From the NCBI GenBank assembly GCA_016786485.1, contig JAEUWD010000051.1, forward strand, positions 1-64,000: a DNA stretch of 64,000 nucleotides. The letters run 5' to 3'. Position numbers and translations under genes: made by a program. The notes below the pieces were generated by a model. It was not told where the DNA came from, did no database searches, and saw nothing but the letters and a program-made list of their open reading frames with translations. This document shows positions 17,901-27,336 of this stretch, in pieces (positions within the stretch are counted from its first letter, which is position 1; each line of letters opens with the position of its first letter). The stretch is from Bacteriovoracaceae bacterium (GTDB lineage: Bacteria; Bdellovibrionota; Bacteriovoracia; Bacteriovoracales; Bacteriovoracaceae).

Positions 17901-17925
17901 AAGGGGCTTTCGGGCCCCTTTTTTT
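17901..17925 (+). terminator. Intrinsic terminator after the subtilisin gene
   Basis: Stem AAGGGGCT / GGCCCCTT (17901-17908 with 17913-17920, one G-U closing pair) around a TTCG loop, followed by a T run to 17925. It lies 8 bp after the protease stop and overlaps the 3' end of the convergent methyltransferase gene. Confidence 0.9.
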
Positions 17926-19036
17926 ATTTCTTTTTTAATAAATAATATTTTACTGACAAACCACCATTTTTAAATTCTAAGCTTTTAAAAATTTTGTATT
18001 TAGCATGAGAAAGTTTAGTTTCTTTAGGGACCAAAATTCCTAAAATTTCGGGTTCACCAACTTGAAGCATTTTTTCCAAGTACTGTTGTAAGGTATGAGC
18101 TAGTTTTATTCGTAGGCCATAAGGCGGATTACAAATCATCCAAAGTGGTTTGGTAGGAGCATTTGTGGCTTGGAAAAGATCTTCGACTTTAAATTGGATC
18201 TCAAAATTTCTTTTTTTAGCGATTTCATTGGCGTGTTCAATACATTTTTCTTCGATGTCATGTCCAATCAGTTGGGTAAATTGAAAATTTTTATTAAAAG
18301 TCGGTTCGATAATTTTTTGTTTCTCAAAAAAAGGAAAGCTTTGATAAGCAAAAGGTCTTTCTAATTTTTCAAAAAACTCGAGTGCTTCAAAAAGAAAAGT
18401 TCCACTGCCACAACAAGGATCGAAAAGCGTTTGTTTTTCAACTACTACGCCAGCCTCATTAATCGTGAACCATAATAAAGCCGAAGCCAATGTTTCGCGC
18501 AGAGGTGCAATGTTACCCATTTCTTTTCTTCCACGGACATGAAGTAATTCACCACTCGTATCTAAACTCAGAGTGGCCATATCGTTATCTAACCGTAAAA
18601 AAACGGTAGGCGGATTTTGGCTTTGATCTTCCAAGTATTTTTTTGGATAAGGCTGGGCCTCATAATGTTTAGCAATGGCTTCGGTCAAAGTTTTTTCCAG
18701 TCGTCCTGTGTGAATAATGCGAGATTTTCTGGCCGTGACCTCGAACTGTGGTATTTTTCCGCGCAGAAAAGGACGCCAATTCAGCGTCGAAGCTTTCTTA
18801 AATAGCTTCGGTAGATCTTTCATTTTGAATTGCTCAAAACGTAGTAGGACACGAGTCGGGATTTTGAGATAGTGATTAAAAGCAAAACCGACTTCAGGCA
18901 ATGCTTCACATTCGATGCCGCCCATAATGGTCTTGGCATCTACCTCAGGAAATTTAAACTTCAATTCACTGAGTGCCAGTGCTTCGAGCCCTGGAGTCAC
19001 GACCAAGAAAAAAGAAGCCTTTTGTTTTAGATCCAT
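17924..19036 (-). CDS. THUMP-domain class I methyltransferase, RlmL/YcbY-N-like
   Basis: An rRNA-methyltransferase-like protein. I start it at the ATG ending at 19036 (MDLKQKASFFLVVTPGLEALAL, 370 aa), because the family begins at this strand and the 13 upstream residues are not conserved-looking. A THUMP/ferredoxin-like N-terminal region (about 10-150) is followed by the SAM fold with LFDPCCGSGTFLFEAL (motif I) and MICNPPYGLRI (motif IV, NPPY). NPPY plus THUMP fits the N2-guanine methyltransferases RlmL (23S m2G2445) and TrmN. Lack of a second MTase half means it corresponds to the N-terminal half of E. coli RlmL. The target base cannot be read from sequence. Confidence 0.85.
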   Translation of the reverse strand: MDLKQKASFFLVVTPGLEALALSELKFKFPEVDAKTIMGGIECEALPEVGFAFNHYLKIPTRVLLRFEQFKMKDLPKLFKKASTLNWRPFLRGKIPQFEVTARKSRIIHTGRLEKTLTEAIAKHYEAQPYPKKYLEDQSQNPPTVFLRLDNDMATLSLDTSGELLHVRGRKEMGNIAPLRETLASALLWFTINEAGVVVEKQTLFDPCCGSGTFLFEALEFFEKLERPFAYQSFPFFEKQKIIEPTFNKNFQFTQLIGHDIEEKCIEHANEIAKKRNFEIQFKVEDLFQATNAPTKPLWMICNPPYGLRIKLAHTLQQYLEKMLQVGEPEILGILVPKETKLSHAKYKIFKSLEFKNGGLSVKYYLLKKK

Positions 19037-19051
19037 GTTAAAATCTTTACG

Positions 19052-19600
19052 ATGAAAAAACTCAATCGTCATCAAGAAGTGGCTTCAGGCAACAAACAAA
19101 ATTGGAAATCTCATCAATATGAGGTTTCAGTTGATTTTAAGCAGGGTAAGAACCTAGAAATCAACTTCGAAGTAAAATCCAAAAATGCTTATTTGACTTC
19201 CAATGATTTCGGGCCAGATTATAAAAAGAATTGGGGTCTTTGGAATTATGATGTGGTGGAAGCTTTTTTGCAGAAAAGAGACAAACGTGGAGTCGCTTCA
19301 CCTTATCTCGAATTTCAACTTTCACCTAAAGGCCAAGCCTTTGCTTTAGTTATTATTAAACCAAGACAAATTTATTATACCCCTTTAGATTTTAAAATTT
19401 CGTCCAAGAGTGTGGTTTCAGGGGAGAGTTGGAAAGCGCAACTATCGATCCCTTCCAATGTTTTTTTATGTGAAGGTGAACTCTATGGAAATTTTTACGC
19501 TTGCTTGGGAGAAAATCAAAACCGTGAATATTACGGTATGAATTTAAATCCAGAAGAAAAGCCTGATTTCCATCGACCGGAGTTTTTTGTAAAATTATGA
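19052..19600 (+). CDS. Carbohydrate-binding family 9-like protein
   Basis: A 182-residue protein without signal peptide whose core (ISFEVKSKNAYL-type strands, then WGLWNYDVVEAFLQ and YLEFQLSPKGQAFAL, then SGESWKAQLSIP) matches the CBM9-like/DOMON beta-sandwich found as a free-standing domain in many Gram-negatives. The start is divergent from the methyltransferase gene, 15 bp apart. Its stop overlaps the start of the RsmI-like gene (ATGA), implying coupling. The absence of a secretion signal is unusual for a sugar-binding domain; cytoplasmic role unknown. Confidence 0.6.
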   Translation: MKKLNRHQEVASGNKQNWKSHQYEVSVDFKQGKNLEINFEVKSKNAYLTSNDFGPDYKKNWGLWNYDVVEAFLQKRDKRGVASPYLEFQLSPKGQAFALVIIKPRQIYYTPLDFKISSKSVVSGESWKAQLSIPSNVFLCEGELYGNFYACLGENQNREYYGMNLNPEEKPDFHRPEFFVKL

Positions 19601-20265
19601 AAGCTAAGCTGACGTTAATACCAACTCCGATTGATGAAGTGACACCTTTAGAGGCGACCGCAAAAAATATTTTGTCCGAAAATTGGTCGAAGGCCTTAAT
19701 CGTTGTCGAAGAAGCCAAAGTTGCGCGTCAGCGTTGGTTACGTTGGGGCCTACCGCGTGAAGCAATTGAAAAATTTGTACTTTATAACGAACATCATACG
19801 GCCGAAGATATTAATCACATCATTAAAGCGCTTAAAAGCGGGCAGGAAGCTTATCTCATGAGCGATTGCGGTTTACCCGCCTTTTGTGATCCTGGTTACG
19901 ATTTAATCAATCGTTGTCACGATGAAAACATTCCTGTTACCTCAACGCCATTTCCCAATTCAATTGTGTTGGCCTTGGCCTTAAGCGGTTTTAATCATCA
20001 AGAGTTTTTCTTTGCGGGATTTATACCCCATGAAGATCGCGCACAAAAACTCAAAAAGCATTTTGAGCGTAAGGAAACTTTTATTCTAATGGATACGCCT
20101 TATCGTCTCGATAAATTGATGGAAGAAATTGCTCAGCTTAAAACCAAACGTCGTCTATTTTTGGCGATGGATCTCAATACGCCAGAAGAAAAATGTGTGC
20201 GTGGAAAAATCGAGACACTCAAAAAAACTTGGGGCAAACGCGAATTTATTTTGGTCGTCGAGTAG
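19597..20265 (+). CDS. Tetrapyrrole-methylase-fold SAM methyltransferase, RsmI-like
   Basis: A 222-residue methyltransferase of the RsmI/tetrapyrrole methylase fold. Evidence: TLIPTPI at the N-terminus, MSDCGLPAFCDPGYDLINRC (the RsmI 'SDAGTPLISDPGY' motif), TPFPNSIVLALALSGF (the 'GPSA...ALSGLP' motif) and FFAGFIPH. RsmI 2'-O-methylates C1402 of 16S rRNA. This protein is shorter than E. coli RsmI (286 aa), lacking the C-terminal domain, so it could be the YabN/SAM-methylase-like variant. It starts within an ATGA overlap of the CBM9-like gene. Confidence 0.75.
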   Translation: MKAKLTLIPTPIDEVTPLEATAKNILSENWSKALIVVEEAKVARQRWLRWGLPREAIEKFVLYNEHHTAEDINHIIKALKSGQEAYLMSDCGLPAFCDPGYDLINRCHDENIPVTSTPFPNSIVLALALSGFNHQEFFFAGFIPHEDRAQKLKKHFERKETFILMDTPYRLDKLMEEIAQLKTKRRLFLAMDLNTPEEKCVRGKIETLKKTWGKREFILVVE

Positions 20266-21117: not shown

Positions 21118-21244
21118 ATTACTCCTTGGCTTTACATAGAATATCAACCAATTGGTATTTTTAGCAATTGAGTACATTTAAACCGCCTTTTTTGATTCAA
21201 GCTTTTGATTGCAAAAGCCTATCAGTCTAGTCTATAAAAGTTTT

Positions 21245-22225
21245 ATGACACATGATAGAAAACAGGATCATATTACGCTAGCGCTTAGGGCAAAAACTTG
21301 GGCCCAAGATACACGTTTTAATTATGAGCCGATGCTTTCGGTCCACCCAAAAACAGAGCAAGTCATGGAAATTCAATTCTTGGGTAAAAAGATGAACTAT
21401 CCTTGGTGGTTTTCGAGCATGACTGGAGGCACCGCGTCAGCGAGAAAGATAAACGAAAATATGGCACGAGTCTGTGGTGAGTTTGGTTTAGGCATGGCCC
21501 TTGGATCACTTCGTCCTTTGCTAAACTCAACTGAGCGCTTCGAAGATTTTTCTGTACGCAAGTTTATGCCGAATGCTCCACTTTTTGGAAATTTAGGTGT
21601 GGCGCAGGTTGAGGAACTTATTCGAAATAAAGAAACAAATAAAATTGATGAGCTTATTGATAAGCTGAATTTAGATGGGTTGGTGGTTCATGTAAATCCA
21701 CTGCAAGAGTGGTTACAGGCCGAAGGCGATAGGTACGATCGTCCGCCTCTAAACACTATGGAAGAGCTACTTTCAAAAGCTAATTATCCTATTATTGTTA
21801 AAGAAGTGGGTCAGGGAATGGGTCCTGCCAGTCTTAAAAAACTCATGGAATTACCTTTGGCCGCGATCGAGTTAGCGGCTTTTGGTGGAACAAATTTCAG
21901 CGCGATTGAAGGGGAGCGTACCCAGGAAAATTTCTCCCACCCGTTAGTCCATGTGGGACATACGGCACTTGAGATGATAAAAATTATCAACGCAAATTTA
22001 GAGAGTCCAAGTGTTCAGTGTCGAAGTTTTATCCTCTCGGGTGGTGTTAAAAATACGCTTGATGGATATTACCTGATGCAGTCTTGTCGAGCTCGGTCCG
22101 TTTTCGCGATGGCCTCAGAGGTGCTGAAACGTGCCCATGAAAGTTACGAAGACTTGTACGAGTTTGTTCAAGCAGAGTTGCAGACCTTAACCATGGCCCA
22201 ACAATTTTTGCAAGTAAGGGATTAG
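21245..22225 (+). CDS. fni: Type 2 isopentenyl-diphosphate delta-isomerase
   Basis: FMN-dependent isomerase interconverting IPP and DMAPP, the last step of the mevalonate cluster. I choose the ATG at 21245 (MTHDRKQDHITLAL, 326 aa) because the family starts with this R-K-x-x-H motif; the open frame begins 36 bp earlier. Further signatures: FNYEPMLSVHP, WWFSSMTGG (FMN binding), GMALGSLRPLL, VKEVGQGMG and the C-terminal SGGVKNTLDGYYLMQ phosphate-binding strand. The sequence style (RFNYEPML) resembles Bacteroidetes IDI-2. It is the first gene of five co-directional isoprenoid genes. Confidence 0.93.
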   Translation: MTHDRKQDHITLALRAKTWAQDTRFNYEPMLSVHPKTEQVMEIQFLGKKMNYPWWFSSMTGGTASARKINENMARVCGEFGLGMALGSLRPLLNSTERFEDFSVRKFMPNAPLFGNLGVAQVEELIRNKETNKIDELIDKLNLDGLVVHVNPLQEWLQAEGDRYDRPPLNTMEELLSKANYPIIVKEVGQGMGPASLKKLMELPLAAIELAAFGGTNFSAIEGERTQENFSHPLVHVGHTALEMIKIINANLESPSVQCRSFILSGGVKNTLDGYYLMQSCRARSVFAMASEVLKRAHESYEDLYEFVQAELQTLTMAQQFLQVRD

Positions 22226-22232
22226 AGAGAGC

Positions 22233-23528
22233 ATGGAAACAATTGCGGGTTTTTCGAAATTATCGAAATCAGAAAAGATCCAGTGGCTATCTCGCCAAGT
22301 GGAAAATAATCCCGATGAATTTTTAGATGTTACACGCTTTTGGTTAAAAAATTCGGATGAGCAAAAAGTCTTTGATGAATTTAGTGAAAACACTATTACT
22401 AATTACTATTTCCCCTATGGAATTGCTCCTAACTTTCTAATCAACGGAAAAATTTATTGTATTCCAATGGTCATTGAAGAAAGTAGCGTGGTCGCAGCTG
22501 CCAGCAAAAGTGCTAATTTCTGGTTATCTCGCGGTGGCTTTAAAGCTGAAGTTATTTCCACTACCAAAGTGGGGCAAGTGCATTTTGAGTGGTTCGGTAA
22601 AAAACGCAAACTCAAAGAATATTTCGAAGCTCAATTACCAAAAATTTGGGAAGCACTTGAGCCACTCTGTGTGAATATGAAAAAGCGTGGTGGTGGTGTT
22701 AAAGATGTCACATTAGTTGATATGACACAGTCACTAGAAAATTATTATCAAATTAAAGTCACCTTCGAAACCTGTGATGCTATGGGTGCCAATTTTATTA
22801 ATACCATTTTGGAAGAGATTTCGAATATTTTAAAAAAAGACATCGATGCAACACAGTTGAACGTCATCATGTCGATTTTAAGCAATTATACGCCAGAATG
22901 TTTGGCCCGTGTTTGGGTGGACTGTCCGATTGAGGACCTGGCCGATCCGGCGCATCAGATGTCGGCCGAAGATTTTGCCAATAAATTTCTTAAAGCAGTT
23001 CAAATAGCGAATGTGGATGTTTCTCGTGCCGTTACACATAATAAAGGCATTTTAAATGGAATTGATTCTGTCGTGTTGGCGACTGGGAATGACTTTCGTG
23101 CCGTTGAAGCCTGTGCGCACGCTTATGCTGCGAGAGACGGACAATATCGTTCGTTGACCTCGGCCAAAATCGAAAATAATCACTTTGTCTTTTCGCTCGA
23201 AATCCCGCTTTCTTTAGGCACGGTCGGTGGTTTGACAACTCTTCATCCTCTTGCCAAACTCTCTCTAAACTTACTGCAAAATCCAAACGCTGAGGAACTG
23301 ATGCTGATGACAGCTTCAGTAGGACTAGCACAGAATTTTGCGGCTATTCGTTCGTTGATTACGACGGGCATACAGAAAGGTCATATGCGCATGCATCTTT
23401 TAAATATTTTAAAACAAATGCAAGCTAATCGTAGCGAGATTGAATCCGCGAAAAATTATTTCTCGGACAAAACCGTTTCGTTTACATCAGTTAGAAATTT
23501 TTTAAATTCAATGAAGATAACTCAATAG
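22233..23528 (+). CDS. mvaA: Hydroxymethylglutaryl-CoA reductase, class II
   Basis: Converts HMG-CoA to mevalonate, the committed step of the pathway. Length 431 aa matches class II (Pseudomonas mevalonii type) enzymes. Motifs: ENTITNYYFPYGIAPNFLINGK at about 52-73, IPMVIEESSVVAAASK with catalytic Glu82/83, DAMGANFINT, NKGILNGIDSV with the catalytic Lys, and ATGNDFRAVEACAHAYAA. It starts 7 bp after fni. There is no HMG-CoA synthase or thiolase in the window, so the upstream steps are encoded elsewhere. Class II enzymes often use NADH; cofactor not determined here. Confidence 0.94.
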   Translation: METIAGFSKLSKSEKIQWLSRQVENNPDEFLDVTRFWLKNSDEQKVFDEFSENTITNYYFPYGIAPNFLINGKIYCIPMVIEESSVVAAASKSANFWLSRGGFKAEVISTTKVGQVHFEWFGKKRKLKEYFEAQLPKIWEALEPLCVNMKKRGGGVKDVTLVDMTQSLENYYQIKVTFETCDAMGANFINTILEEISNILKKDIDATQLNVIMSILSNYTPECLARVWVDCPIEDLADPAHQMSAEDFANKFLKAVQIANVDVSRAVTHNKGILNGIDSVVLATGNDFRAVEACAHAYAARDGQYRSLTSAKIENNHFVFSLEIPLSLGTVGGLTTLHPLAKLSLNLLQNPNAEELMLMTASVGLAQNFAAIRSLITTGIQKGHMRMHLLNILKQMQANRSEIESAKNYFSDKTVSFTSVRNFLNSMKITQ

Positions 23529-23535
23529 GAACAAG

Positions 23536-24543
23536 ATGTCGGTTGGACAGAGAGAACAGTATTTTTTTGGACATGGAAAGCTGCTACTAAGCGGTGAGTA
23601 CTTTGTTCTCGATGGAGCGCATGCTCTGGCCCTTCCAACTCGTCTTGGGCAATCACTCACGGTTCGATATCGTAAAACTTTTGCACCAAAACTCATTTGG
23701 AAAAGTTTTGATGTCGAAGGGCACAAGTGGTTTGAAGCTGAAATGGAATTGTGGCAATTTAATTCTATCAATCAAGAAACCAATGAAACGTTAGAAGTCC
23801 TTCGTAAAATTTTACAAGAAGCACGCGTTCTCAATCCGCATTTCCTGCGCGAAGAAGTGGAAGTGACGGTGGAAACTAAACTTGATTTCCCGGTTGATTG
23901 GGGTCTAGGTAGTAGTTCTTCGTTAATTTATAATATCGCTCAATGGGCCTACGTAAGTCCGTTTGAGTTAGCTTTCAGAACCCTAGGTGGTTCTGGCTAT
24001 GATATTGCCTGTGCGCAAAGCTTAGGGCCGATTATGTATCAGAAAAAAGTTGAAGGTCCGAGCTGGCGGCAAGTGAATTTCAATCCAGCTTTTGCGTCTT
24101 CTATTTACTTCGTGAGCCTTGGTAAAAAAGCTTATACCAGTGAAGCACTCGCTTATTACAAAAAAGCAGAAATCAAAGATAAAGAAAGAATCATCAATAT
24201 TATTTCCCATCTGACGGATGAAATCATCACCGCTCAGACTTTGGGCGAATTTGAATCGTTGTTATTAACACATGAGAAATGTGTTTCTGACGCACTTCAA
24301 TTACAGCGCATGCAAGATTTATATTTTTCTGACTACTGGGGAGTTGTGAAATCGTTAGGGGCTTGGGGAGGAGATTTTGTGCTAGTAACTAGTGATCGCG
24401 GACAGGCAGAAACCGCTAGTTATTTTAGAGAAAAAGGTTTTTCGAATTTAATTCCGTATGCGGATTTAATTGGAAACTACATGACAAAACCTTCACCATT
24501 CTATCTGCCTAATTCGATTAGCAATGAAACCCTCTTACAATAA
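23536..24543 (+). CDS. GYDIA-family GHMP kinase (probable phosphomevalonate kinase)
   Basis: A 335-residue GHMP-superfamily kinase. The N-terminal FFGHGKLLLSGEYFVLDGAHALALPTRLGQSL is the substrate/nucleotide strand. LDFPVDWGLGSSSSLIYNIAQW is the glycine/serine-rich ATP loop, and SGYDIACAQSLGP is the family's namesake motif. Such proteins occur in mevalonate clusters of Bacteroidetes. Because mevalonate kinase and the decarboxylase are present next door, the missing step, phosphomevalonate phosphorylation, is the best guess; this is inference by elimination. It overlaps mvaD by 20 bp and follows mvaA by 7 bp. Confidence 0.82.
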   Translation: MSVGQREQYFFGHGKLLLSGEYFVLDGAHALALPTRLGQSLTVRYRKTFAPKLIWKSFDVEGHKWFEAEMELWQFNSINQETNETLEVLRKILQEARVLNPHFLREEVEVTVETKLDFPVDWGLGSSSSLIYNIAQWAYVSPFELAFRTLGGSGYDIACAQSLGPIMYQKKVEGPSWRQVNFNPAFASSIYFVSLGKKAYTSEALAYYKKAEIKDKERIINIISHLTDEIITAQTLGEFESLLLTHEKCVSDALQLQRMQDLYFSDYWGVVKSLGAWGGDFVLVTSDRGQAETASYFREKGFSNLIPYADLIGNYMTKPSPFYLPNSISNETLLQ

Positions 24544-25552
24544 TCAGATTTCATGGCGAGCACCTTCTAATATTGCTCTCATTAAATATTGGGGGAAAAA
24601 AGACGGACAATTTCCGATGAATCCGTCGCTAAGTTTTTCTTTAGAAAAATGTCATACCGAAATGTCACTTATTTATCGTCCAGCTTCAGAGTTAAACGTC
24701 AATTTTACATTCGAAGGGAATATTAAAACGAGCTTCGGTGATAAAATTAAAAAATATCTCACAAGCATAGCACAAAAATATTCGTGGATGAATGAACTGG
24801 AATTTGAAATCAATTCGAAAAATTCATTCCCACATTCTTCTGGCATTGCTTCTTCAGCTTCATCATTTGCAGCGCTCGCTCTTTGTTTAACCGATTTAAT
24901 TACGAGTAAAGAGAATAAGCCAAATGATTTTTTCGAAATGGCCAGCGACCTTGCTCGCCAAGGTTCTGGTAGCGCTGCTCGTTCTGTTTTTGCAGGTTAT
25001 TCTTCCTGGGGGCAAACGGCTTTAATTAAAAATAGTTCTGATAATTACGCACGACCACTGCTAAATAATATTCATCCGAGTTTCTTAAAAATAAAAAATG
25101 TCATTTGCGTTGTCGATGCGAATGAGAAAAGTGTTTCAAGTACTCAGGGTCATGCTCTCATGGCCAATCATCCGATGAAAGAAATGCGAATTCAACAAGT
25201 TCACCAGCAATTAGAAAATTTATTATTAATTTTAGAAAGTGGTGATTGGAACGCGTTTGCACAACTAGTAGAAGCAGAAGCACTTACTTTGCACGCTTTA
25301 ATGTTAACAAGCCAACCATCATTTATTTTATTAAAACCAAATACTTTAAATTTAATTCAAGAGATTCAAAGCTTACGAAAGAGTGGACACCAGGTGTGTT
25401 TTACTCTTGATGCTGGGGCGAATCTCCATCTGCTATATGATCCTTCAGAAAATCAGATGATTGAGCAAAAGATGTTAGCGTGGAAAGAAAGTGGTTATCT
25501 TCTAAATGCTATTTTTGACGGAGTAGGTAGTGGCCCAAGTAAACTCGCCTAA
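24524..25552 (+). CDS. mvaD: Diphosphomevalonate decarboxylase
   Basis: A 342-residue GHMP-fold decarboxylase making isopentenyl diphosphate. Signatures: SWRAPSNIALIKYWGKKDGQ at the N-terminus, NPSLSFSLEKCHTE, FPHSSGIASSASSFAALAL (ATP loop) and DLARQGSGSAARSVFAGYSSW. The last carries the Ser/Arg used by this family. It overlaps the preceding kinase by 20 bp and the following mevalonate kinase by 23 bp, so all are translated from one message. It belongs to the decarboxylase group that includes mevalonate-3,5-bisphosphate-type enzymes, so substrate detail should be kept open. Confidence 0.93.
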   Translation: MKPSYNNQISWRAPSNIALIKYWGKKDGQFPMNPSLSFSLEKCHTEMSLIYRPASELNVNFTFEGNIKTSFGDKIKKYLTSIAQKYSWMNELEFEINSKNSFPHSSGIASSASSFAALALCLTDLITSKENKPNDFFEMASDLARQGSGSAARSVFAGYSSWGQTALIKNSSDNYARPLLNNIHPSFLKIKNVICVVDANEKSVSSTQGHALMANHPMKEMRIQQVHQQLENLLLILESGDWNAFAQLVEAEALTLHALMLTSQPSFILLKPNTLNLIQEIQSLRKSGHQVCFTLDAGANLHLLYDPSENQMIEQKMLAWKESGYLLNAIFDGVGSGPSKLA

Positions 25553-26471
25553 ATTTTTCTCAAAAGTATTGCTCTTCGGAGAGTATTCGATCATTAAAGG
25601 GCACACGTCACTGGCGATTCCTTATGAATTATTTAGTGGTGTGCTTTCGCTTTCAGGTAAACCAAAACATGAAAGAGATTCTCATAAAGAATTAAAAACC
25701 TTTTTGAACTATTTAAAAAACTTAGATAAACCAACGCTCAAAAATCTAGGACTGGATTTAAGATCATTTGAATTTGATATCAACCACGGTCTTTTCTTTG
25801 ATTCAACCATTCCTCAAGGTCACGGTGTCGGGAGTTCAGGCGCTTTATGTGCCAGCTTATTTGAGCGTTATAGTTCAAAGAGTTTTAGTCGCAACGAAGA
25901 TTTGAATCTTGAAGAGATTCTTGTTCTGAAAAACCATTTGGCAAAAATGGAATCCCATTTCCATGGTGCAAGTTCAGGTTTTGATCCGCTTTTGAGTTAT
26001 TTATCGGTTCCACTTTTAACTCAATCACAAACCATTATAAAGGTGAAGTTGCCGGAGCAGGGCAAGTCGATTCGCACTTTATTCTTACTTGATACAGAAC
26101 GTTCACGCCGAACTGAACCACTCGTAAACTTGTTCTTAGAAAAATGTAAAAACAAAGAATTTGAAGATTTTTTCCATACGCAATACCGCCAAGTGAATGA
26201 AGGTTGTATTGAAAGCTTTTTAAGTAATAATTTCTATGAACTTTACCGTCAGTTTGCCGTGTTATCTGACTTCCAGTCAAAACACTTTAAGCCGATGATT
26301 CCACCGCTTTACCAAAAACTGTGGGAAGCAGGCTTAGATTCGAAACGTTTCTTTTTAAAGCTTTGTGGTGCTGGTGGTGGTGGCTTCTTATTAGGCATTA
26401 CTGATGACTTCGATTCATTCTGCCAAGAATTTCCACAAGAACAAGTTCGCGTTCTGTTTCGATTTAATTAA
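25530..26471 (+). CDS. mvk: Mevalonate kinase
   Basis: A 313-residue GHMP kinase placed last in the cluster. GTG start inside the end of mvaD with GGAG upstream. Motifs: SKVLLFGEYSIIKGHTSLAIP, STIPQGHGVGSSGALCASLF (motif 2), SHFHGASSGFDPLLSY (the catalytic Asp region typical of mevalonate kinase) and LKLCGAGGGGFLLGI (motif 3). It phosphorylates mevalonate at O5. Distinction from phosphomevalonate kinase rests on the HG-x-SSG-D motif and is likely but not absolute. Its 3' end overlaps the convergent crotonase gene by 8 bp. Confidence 0.85.
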   Translation: MAQVNSPKFFSKVLLFGEYSIIKGHTSLAIPYELFSGVLSLSGKPKHERDSHKELKTFLNYLKNLDKPTLKNLGLDLRSFEFDINHGLFFDSTIPQGHGVGSSGALCASLFERYSSKSFSRNEDLNLEEILVLKNHLAKMESHFHGASSGFDPLLSYLSVPLLTQSQTIIKVKLPEQGKSIRTLFLLDTERSRRTEPLVNLFLEKCKNKEFEDFFHTQYRQVNEGCIESFLSNNFYELYRQFAVLSDFQSKHFKPMIPPLYQKLWEAGLDSKRFFLKLCGAGGGGFLLGITDDFDSFCQEFPQEQVRVLFRFN

Positions 26472-27336
26472 TCGGAGTAACGTTATTTGGTAACGCTTCA
26501 GCATGCTCTTCGTTTTTTAACAATGTTAATTTCACCGAATAGCTCATACTTTTAGCTTTAAGAAATTCACGGTTGTGATTTTCATCAATATTTTTCCAAT
26601 CTTCGGCCATCATCGCAGCTTTTGTAAGTTTCTTTTCAAATTCGATACTCGCTTCGACTTTTTCACGAATAACTTCTAGCAAGCCTAACTTGGATTGAAT
26701 TCTCTGGATTGGAGCTTGGGTACGGATACTTTCTAAAAGTTTCTTCAACACTTCATCCCGATTAGTTGAATCATACATTTGATAGATAAAACCACTTTCT
26801 GTTAATTGTTGGCTTGGGATGTTCGCGGCCGATAAAACCCAGTTTCTTGCCATGGCCGGATTAATGATATGGCTTAGTAAACCTAGACCACCAGAACAAG
26901 CAATCAGCCCAAAATGGGTATGATTAAATTTAATTTGAGTATTGATATTAGCTAAACGAATGTCAGCACCTAAAGCTAATTCCGCCGCTACGCCTTGGGC
27001 ACCATTGCCTAAGTCAAAAACGATCGTCTGAGGTAGGTGTAGCATCGCTAAGTTAAGCTTTGCCACTTTTTCTAAAAGTTTTTCCAGTGTTGGACGCTTT
27101 AAATGCTTAATGTGCTGATTGTTAAGACCGCGTGAGAAATACTCAGTCGATGAATTCACTACGACAGAGTGTATTTCCACCTTGGTGATAAGCCATGAGA
27201 GAATGGATTCGAATTCAAAGAGCATTTCCATCGAGAAATCATTCTGATTTTCGATGTCATTGATAGTGACATAAAGTGTGCGTGTTGATTTCTCGAGACG
27301 TGTCACTAAAGTTTTGTAATTGAATAGAGCCGACAT
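26464..27336 (-). CDS. Enoyl-CoA hydratase/isomerase (crotonase) family protein
   Basis: A 290-residue crotonase-fold protein with FDLGNGAQGVAAELALGADIRLAN at about 107-130 (second oxyanion-hole strand) and FNHTHFGLIACSGGLGLLSHIINPAMARNWVLSA after it. The first oxyanion strand (VVVNSSTEYFSRGLN) is weakly conserved, and the usual catalytic Glu of 'EVKLGL' is not visible (HFGLIA instead). It may therefore be a divergent or non-hydratase member. AAGGAAGG Shine-Dalgarno supports the start. It is probably unrelated to the convergent mevalonate cluster. Substrate unknown. Confidence 0.75.
   Translation of the reverse strand: MSALFNYKTLVTRLEKSTRTLYVTINDIENQNDFSMEMLFEFESILSWLITKVEIHSVVVNSSTEYFSRGLNNQHIKHLKRPTLEKLLEKVAKLNLAMLHLPQTIVFDLGNGAQGVAAELALGADIRLANINTQIKFNHTHFGLIACSGGLGLLSHIINPAMARNWVLSAANIPSQQLTESGFIYQMYDSTNRDEVLKKLLESIRTQAPIQRIQSKLGLLEVIREKVEASIEFEKKLTKAAMMAEDWKNIDENHNREFLKAKSMSYSVKLTLLKNEEHAEALPNNVTPIN

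Follow-up and report, generated by a model that had tools for sequence, protein, structure and literature searches.

Organization of the mevalonate operon

The window analysed here, the whole stretch of 64,000 nucleotides of contig JAEUWD010000051.1 from a Bacteriovoracaceae bacterium (genome of 2.98 Mb in 67 contigs, 98.03% complete), carries on its plus strand five open reading frames (ORFs) in the order Fni, MvaA, GYDIA kinase, MvaD and MvaK at 21209/21245–26471 (Table 1). Each of the first two junctions is a gap of 7 bases, and the last two are overlaps of 20 and 23 bases, which bears out the first-pass annotation of five genes overlapping or nearly so; the ATG at 21245 that it took as the start of fni shares its frame with the TTG at 21209 called by the ORF program. 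The same five genes are found in the same order in 16 of 17 loci of related bacteria (L032–L048), and the arrangement is therefore far beyond chance. Within this set the Fni of L039 is truncated by the contig end, and in L045, like in L025, MvaA is present near GYDIA and MvaK but MvaD and Fni were not detected.

Judging from the sequences, it is highly probable that this is a working mevalonate operon of the Bacteroidota type with the GYDIA protein as phosphomevalonate kinase. In the proposed pathway MvaA would convert 3-hydroxy-3-methylglutaryl-CoA (HMG-CoA) to mevalonate, MvaK would phosphorylate this to mevalonate 5-phosphate, the GYDIA kinase should form mevalonate 5-diphosphate, MvaD would yield isopentenyl diphosphate, and Fni would isomerise it. 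MvaA exceeds the cut-off of the NCBIfam class II HMG-CoA reductase model TIGR00532 (297.6 bits, cut-off 259.95), and its top solved structure is 7n7s with 491.6 bits. Fni matches TIGR02151 over nearly its full length with 208.9 bits (E 9.6e-62; curated cut-off 281.3), and MvaK matches the mevalonate kinase model TIGR00549 with 67.3 bits (cut-off 163.05); both are clear homologues despite scores below the curated cut-offs. In MvaK, E141 and SG-x-D152 are invariant in 26 of 26 aligned rows, the pattern HG-x-S-S-G-x-D is kept with the G absent in one of the rows, and rows 1–17 of a Foldseek search are all mevalonate kinases. MvaD is above the cut-off of TIGR01240 (178.4 bits, cut-off 171.35) and fails the phosphomevalonate decarboxylase model NF040704 (96.8 of 475 bits) as well as NF040847 (50.1 of 560). 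It matches 19 PDB sequences, 18 of them named (di)phosphomevalonate or mevalonate diphosphate decarboxylase or a synonym, and one a bisphosphate decarboxylase.

Table 1. Genes of the operon and key residues of the GYDIA kinase, in window positions.
Feature	Position	Strand	Basis
fni, type 2 isopentenyl-diphosphate isomerase	21245..22225 (ORF open from TTG 21209)	+	TIGR02151; Bacteroidota grouping
mvaA, class II HMG-CoA reductase	22233..23528	+	TIGR00532; structure 7n7s; tree and AU test
GYDIA-family GHMP kinase, putative phosphomevalonate kinase	23536..24543	+	NF040656; slot, motif 3, X-MvaD fusion; AF2 model
GYDIA Lys15, motif-1 lysine	23578..23580	+	invariant in 60/60 GYDIA rows and in 26 rows with X
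GYDIA Asp156 of G-S-G-Y-D-I-A, putative catalytic base	24001..24003	+	60/60 rows
GYDIA Lys272, motif-3 lysine	24349..24351	+	60/60 rows
GYDIA Asp280, motif-3 aspartate	24373..24375	+	60/60 GYDIA rows, 14/14 X rows
mvaD, diphosphomevalonate decarboxylase	24524..25552	+	TIGR01240; NF040704 not reached; PDB matches
mvaK, divergent mevalonate kinase	25530..26471	+	TIGR00549 below threshold; E141, SG-x-D152; Foldseek

Among 290 genomes of the phylum, matches to NF040656 (GYDIA family GHMP kinase) over the cut-off are present in 93 of the 97 genomes of the Bacteriovoracaceae-type family to which the window belongs (f1), the remaining four being 81–84% complete, and in none of the 193 genomes outside f1, 25 of which gave weak matches. 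One genome contains two such genes on opposite strands, 2.4 kb apart (G138:C8:31412-35659). The first-pass annotation had also named a full methylerythritol phosphate (MEP) pathway as a finding that would speak against it; of this set dxr was checked with PF02670 and is not found in the genome of the window (the control was found in 10 of 14; dxs and ispD-H were outside the search). The MEP route is thus closed at dxr, as far as the PF02670 search reaches. In the phylum dxr is found in 37 of the 290 genomes, only one of which belongs to f1, and this exception (G237) is a fragment of 35 positions, leaving 96 of 97 f1 genomes in which dxr is undetected.

The GYDIA kinase

The product of the third gene reaches 356.3 bits with NF040656 (cut-off 225). 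A phosphomevalonate kinase is needed because MvaD is of the diphospho type, and the protein was earlier assigned this role by elimination only. That assignment now gains further support from the slot that the gene occupies, from a fusion of the corresponding kinase with MvaD in a relative, and from motif 3. The alignments comprise 60 GYDIA rows (A5), 14 rows of the slot kinase X described below, without the X of L221 (A7), and both kinases together in 26 rows (A8). Invariant in the GYDIA rows are K15, S127, G-S-G..D156, K198, K272 and D280, and Asp156 aligns with the SG-x-D of X in 14 of 14 X rows. Motif 3 of the window's protein reads KSLGAWGGD, with the family pattern K-x2-G-A-x-G-G-D, and ends in aspartate like the motifs of annotated phosphomevalonate kinases from Limosilactobacillus and Streptomyces (KTSGAGGGD, KPSGAGGGD) and of Lin0012 (3k17, KSSGSGGGD). 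We take Lin0012 to be a phosphomevalonate kinase, its record reading 'Lin0012 protein'. The motifs of mevalonate kinases are instead KLTGGGRGG, KITGGGLGG and KPTGSGGGG, and in the MvaK of the operon (KLCGAGGGG) glycine likewise replaces the aspartate; the comparison is based on two annotated phosphomevalonate kinases and 3k17 versus three annotated mevalonate kinases, 1kkh and this MvaK.

Around weak NF040656 matches in other families of Bdellovibrionota 18 stretches were fetched, and 15 of them show the order Fni-MvaA-X-MvaD-MvaK, Fni being truncated in L222 and L230, where the contig ends. The others are L216, with Fni, MvaA, one long ORF and MvaK, and L224 and L228, where only MvaK is seen. 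X is a GHMP-type kinase of 276–378 residues from stop to stop that occupies the position of GYDIA. No match to Pfam was obtained at E 0.1 in any of the eight X proteins tested, and five of ten gave weak matches to NCBIfam. X bears GHMP-type motifs, with K14, S83, SG-x-D124, K165, K240 and D248 invariant in the 14 rows, and its motif 3 is K-x2-GA-x-GAD or near to it (K-x2-G-A-x-x-x-D), two rows having Q for the second G. The first match of the X profile is Listeria Lin0012 (3k17, 1.2e-12), narrowly ahead of the mevalonate kinase 1vis (6.2e-12). The long ORF (L216:7441-9621, minus strand, genome G100) has 727 residues and consists of X (residues 15–325, 162.5 bits) and MvaD (415–723, 171.2 bits), with about 90 residues linking the two parts. 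On a plasmid of Legionella adelaidensis, a protein annotated as hypothetical (L232:2449-3306, minus strand) that neighbours fni and the HMG-CoA reductase gene is also an X, with 257.8 bits and no match in Pfam. Most likely GYDIA and X both make mevalonate 5-diphosphate.

The predicted structure of the GYDIA kinase (AF2; pLDDT 92.2, pTM 0.89) has the GHMP fold. In structure comparison (VIA) its closest matches are the mevalonate kinase 8tfo (Z 25.9), 3k17 (25.7) and 3gon, which contains phosphomevalonate (25.5), so that 3k17 and 3gon are within a tied top group. A number of results speak against a role as phosphomevalonate kinase. The heptokinase WcbL is close as well (Z 24.8), and for the model of MvaK, too, 3k17 and 8tfo are tied; the whole-fold Z fails to separate the activities, and the comparison was dropped as a means to tell the two kinases apart. 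Mevalonate kinases rank first among solved structures for the profile of GYDIA alone, and 1kkh, a mevalonate kinase, is first for the joint profile A8 (4.2e-16), followed by 3k17 (7.7e-15) and at 2e-6 by 1k47 and 3gon. Foldseek places six rows of mevalonate kinases before 3k17, with 3gon at row 27, and mevalonate kinases precede 1k47 too. A search of solved structures with the single GYDIA sequence gave no match. With hhalign the GYDIA profile gives 3.9e-8 against X and 3.9e-10 against MvaK, so that X is not the closer of the two, and an attempt to prove orthology of GYDIA and X in this way gave no resolution. The fusion was found once among the ORFs scanned.

The same rankings, together with a weak match of GYDIA to TIGR00549 (36.5 bits), could be read as the two kinases having swapped roles, with GYDIA as mevalonate kinase and the last gene as phosphomevalonate kinase. 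We regard this as quite improbable, as MvaK is the stronger of the two on TIGR00549, retains E...HG-x-S-S-G-x-D and has CGAGGGG in motif 3, where GYDIA carries the aspartate of phosphomevalonate kinases. Non-classical mevalonate branches exist in archaea and Chloroflexi, and GYDIA might act in one of this kind, on mevalonate 3-phosphate for instance, while MvaD would use a mono- or bisphosphate. This reading, raised in the first-pass annotation, is very unlikely given that MvaD passes the diphosphomevalonate cut-off and falls far short of those of NF040704 and NF040847. Fold alone is indecisive, and slot, fusion and motif 3 carry most of the weight for the reaction; on these grounds the GYDIA kinase is very probably a phosphomevalonate kinase that converts mevalonate 5-phosphate to mevalonate 5-diphosphate.

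Ancestry of the operon

In phylogenetic trees the MvaA and Fni proteins of f1 and Bacteroidota group together, apart from other Bdellovibrionota, with support of 100 and 100 in the Shimodaira–Hasegawa-like approximate likelihood ratio test (SH-aLRT). The same grouping is seen for MvaK (97, or 100 without two rows), and the same split is preferred for MvaD, with a support of 98 without Legionella; the Legionella sequences fall with other Bdellovibrionota. The approximately unbiased (AU) test, in which Legionella and for MvaK also L228 were left out, rejects a clade of all Bdellovibrionota for MvaA (p = 2e-12), MvaK (p = 0.0004) and Fni (p = 0.026), but not for MvaD (p = 0.40). The Bacteroidetes affinity suggested in the first-pass annotation is thereby upheld for three proteins and preferred for MvaD, and vertical descent with other Bdellovibrionota, which it had named as the contrary outcome, fails for the three and may hold for the fourth. 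The trees are quick ones with long stems, made from ORFs with stops at both ends in the tblastn set, with at most 28 Bacteroidota rows each and plasmid outgroups, and the Bacteroidota loci (the best 80 GYDIA matches less 17) are an uneven sample.

Vertical inheritance within Bdellovibrionota, with the likeness to Bacteroidota caused by slow evolution or a tree artefact, would fit the gene order shared with other Bdellovibrionota, the result for MvaD and the warnings of the tree program for uneven composition and long branches (Melissococcus, L228, L041, L048, L040 and others), but with the AU rejections for MvaA, Fni and MvaK it is improbable. The trees separate f1 only poorly from Bacteroidota within their common group, so that gene exchange in either direction would fit them. 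The exchange is old and family-wide, and not a recent acquisition. All five genes are found in identical order also in L052, a metagenome-assembled genome of Chitinophagales.

HMG-CoA synthase

The first-pass annotation described the mevalonate cluster as complete, which does not hold, since HMG-CoA synthase (HMGS) is found neither in the cluster nor in the rest of the genome by PF08540, PF01154 or an HMGS alignment. Five proteins of the genome match PF08541, namely FabH, an OleA-type protein, a type III polyketide synthase (PKS)-like protein and two thiolases. The OleA-type protein (L126) was tried as a hidden HMGS and rejected; it is over the cut-off of NF006720 and lies amid OleB-, OleC- and OleD-like genes. 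An Ole-type olefin cluster is located at L200:2-4367 (G000:C66) of this genome, with OleA over the cut-off and OleB-, OleC- and OleD-like neighbours. Compared with the DpgA model (cut-off 425), the type III PKS-like proteins score 178 bits (L133, G000:C28, in the window's genome) and 158 bits (L139, G059).

In 20 genomes including that of the window PF01154 gives a match in one only (G198), and in ten related genomes with the L033 to L048 loci it gives none. With an alignment of two HMGS proteins, full-length HMGS is found in 2 of 129 f1 genomes (G198 and G249). Two further ones from a single genus (G319 and G259, with the loci L145 and L146) have an archaeal-type HMGS over the cut-off, which suggests separate gains of HMGS. 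In the remaining 125 no HMGS is recognised, 124 having no match and one (G192) a partial match of 17 bits. Among 120 Flavobacteriaceae full-length HMGS is found in eight and weak matches only in four, leaving 112 without a recognised HMGS; of the four weak matches (L209–L212), L209, L210 and L212 were set aside, being 68–70% identical to the FabH-like L130. In five flavobacteria searched with PF01154, it was found in Flavobacterium flevense only.

An HMGS that is present but not recognised would leave the pathway classical, with only the annotation failing. Profiles may miss a divergent enzyme, HMGS of two types is present in four of the 129 f1 genomes, and flavobacteria have an extra FabH-like protein below the FabH cut-offs (L130, L132). 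Against this, the five PF08541 matches of the window's genome are of the other types named above, and nothing closely similar to the FabH-like protein of flavobacteria is seen among the PF08541 matches of this genome, G008 and G059, where its best identity is 29% or less, to FabH-type proteins. We therefore look upon an unrecognised HMGS as possible but rather unlikely.

Leucine degradation as a possible source of HMG-CoA

As the genome is without a recognisable HMGS, leucine is the favoured candidate for the source of HMG-CoA. Leucine would be converted via isovaleryl-CoA to 3-methylcrotonyl-CoA, which would be carboxylated by methylcrotonyl-CoA carboxylase (MCC), and a LiuC-like hydratase would then yield HMG-CoA. 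Contig C63 of the genome encodes, in a row, mccB, a LiuC-like crotonase, mccA, a small biotin-carrier-like protein (called by its AMKMEHT motif, no match in NCBIfam), HMG-CoA lyase (NF004283, 377.9 bits) and a second crotonase. The same order is seen in G008 (near-closed, two contigs) by its ORFs, of which three were scanned, the biotin carrier being below the length cut. Compared with solved structures, MccB scores 728 bits with the methylcrotonyl-CoA carboxylase 3u9r, 459 with geranyl-CoA carboxylase and at most 276 with chains named propionyl-CoA carboxylase, except two (741 and 729 bits) named by the depositors as propionyl- or probable acetyl-/propionyl-CoA carboxylase. With the alignment A4, which includes this MccB itself, it reaches 1027.5 bits.

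MccB was surveyed in 80 genomes chosen from roughly 250 of f1 and Flavobacteriaceae, including all those known to bear HMGS; 37 f1 genomes were picked mostly by completeness and 30 Flavobacteriaceae mostly as first in the list. Absence of HMGS was decided by the alignment search for f1 (129 genomes, the negatives of which were itemised only in part) and most Flavobacteriaceae and by PF01154 alone for G293–G295, with G192 counted as HMGS-less. MccB is present in 65 of 67 HMGS-less genomes and in 9 of 13 with HMGS (Fisher p 0.0056), and within f1 in 37/37 and 2/4 respectively (p 0.0073). Some matches have one internal stop (G249, G353, G355, G433) or are of half length (G173).

Several points count against leucine as the source. 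For Flavobacteriaceae alone the difference is not significant (28/30 versus 7/9, p 0.22), and the Fisher counts take no account of relatedness. MCC is also present alongside HMGS in some genomes, and two (G339, G351) have neither. Two MccB matches, in G340 with 557 bits and in G249 with 652 bits and a stop, are near the range of second copies (500–598 bits) and may be another carboxylase; without these two the counts are 64/67 and 8/13 (p 0.0023), with p 0.0004 for f1 and 0.57 for Flavobacteriaceae. The LiuC-like crotonase between mccB and mccA is under every equivalog cut-off shown, and the HMG-CoA lyase of the operon would compete for HMG-CoA. The gene evidence covers the carboxylase, the putative hydratase and the lyase. 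Taking both sides together, we lean slightly towards a supply of HMG-CoA from leucine breakdown.

Neighbouring genes

A crotonase-like gene on the minus strand (26464-27336) converges on the mevalonate operon and overlaps its end by 8 bases, and is found nearby in 12 of the 17 related loci. It was set aside as the hydratase forming HMG-CoA, the best NCBIfam match being 62.3 bits with a cut-off of 363; judged by the crotonase pattern, one catalytic glutamate also seems to be replaced. Upstream, at 17924-20262, RlmL-like, CBM9-like and short RsmI-like genes are likewise conserved neighbours, the RsmI-like one (105.3 bits, cut-off 167.9) being present in 14 of the 17 related loci.

Comparison with known systems

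The likeness of the window's kinase to the GYDIA family is that of a protein over the cut-off of NF040656, a hypothetical equivalog model without an assigned reaction; in the present case a phosphomevalonate kinase is favoured by slot, motif 3 and the fusion of the positional counterpart. Gram-positive phosphomevalonate kinases of the GHMP type (1k47/3gon, 3k17, Limosilactobacillus, Streptomyces) have the same fold (Z 22.8–25.7) and the same motif 3 (K-x2-G-[AS]-x-G-G-D), with only 16–18% identity to GYDIA in structural alignments. For Flavobacteriaceae (Elizabethkingia) the mevalonate route is said in PMC4026382 to lack phosphomevalonate kinase, an unidentified GHMP kinase being suggested. 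The same paper counts HMGS as present (all but one enzyme), whereas we do not recognise it in 112 of 120 Flavobacteriaceae. In the literature searched, with subscription journals mostly outside its scope, we found no use of GYDIA in this sense and nothing on Bdellovibrio with HMG-CoA synthase or on bacterial mevalonate pathways without HMGS.

That a mevalonate pathway without HMGS, dependent on leucine breakdown for every isoprenoid, is normal in predators of the Bacteriovoracaceae type and in most Flavobacteriaceae, with two divergent GHMP kinases, GYDIA and the X of other Bdellovibrionota and a Legionella, as the missing phosphomevalonate kinases, is a proposal for which we see the chances as evenly poised. 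If true, it would tie the synthesis of lipid carrier and quinones to the catabolism of protein food, name the kinase called missing in Flavobacteriaceae (PMC4026382) and add a second family with the same role. The HMGS gap would then lead to a claim open to test, namely that leucine supplies the isoprenoids of entire bacterial families, and part of the reported link between predation and mevalonate could be explained, with leucine- or protein-dependent growth as a prediction.

In PMC7321100, feeding of a myxobacterium with dimethylacrylic acid-d6 labelled a sesquiterpene and 13C2-acetate did not, which is tied there to leucine degradation, and according to PMC7321100 and PMC9548883 this degradation meets the mevalonate pathway at HMG-CoA in myxobacteria. 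Myxococcus xanthus has the HMG-CoA synthase MvaS, as far as a title in a reference list tells, whereas none was found in the genome of the window, where leucine could be the sole source. Mevalonate genes are reported to be enriched in predatory bacteria, a 'mevalonate signature' (Pasternak 2013, as cited in PMC4451040, PMC4646340 and PMC9548883). As cited in PMC4451040, acetoacetyl-CoA pools of the prey were suggested to be involved; for f1 the present finding points instead to leucine.

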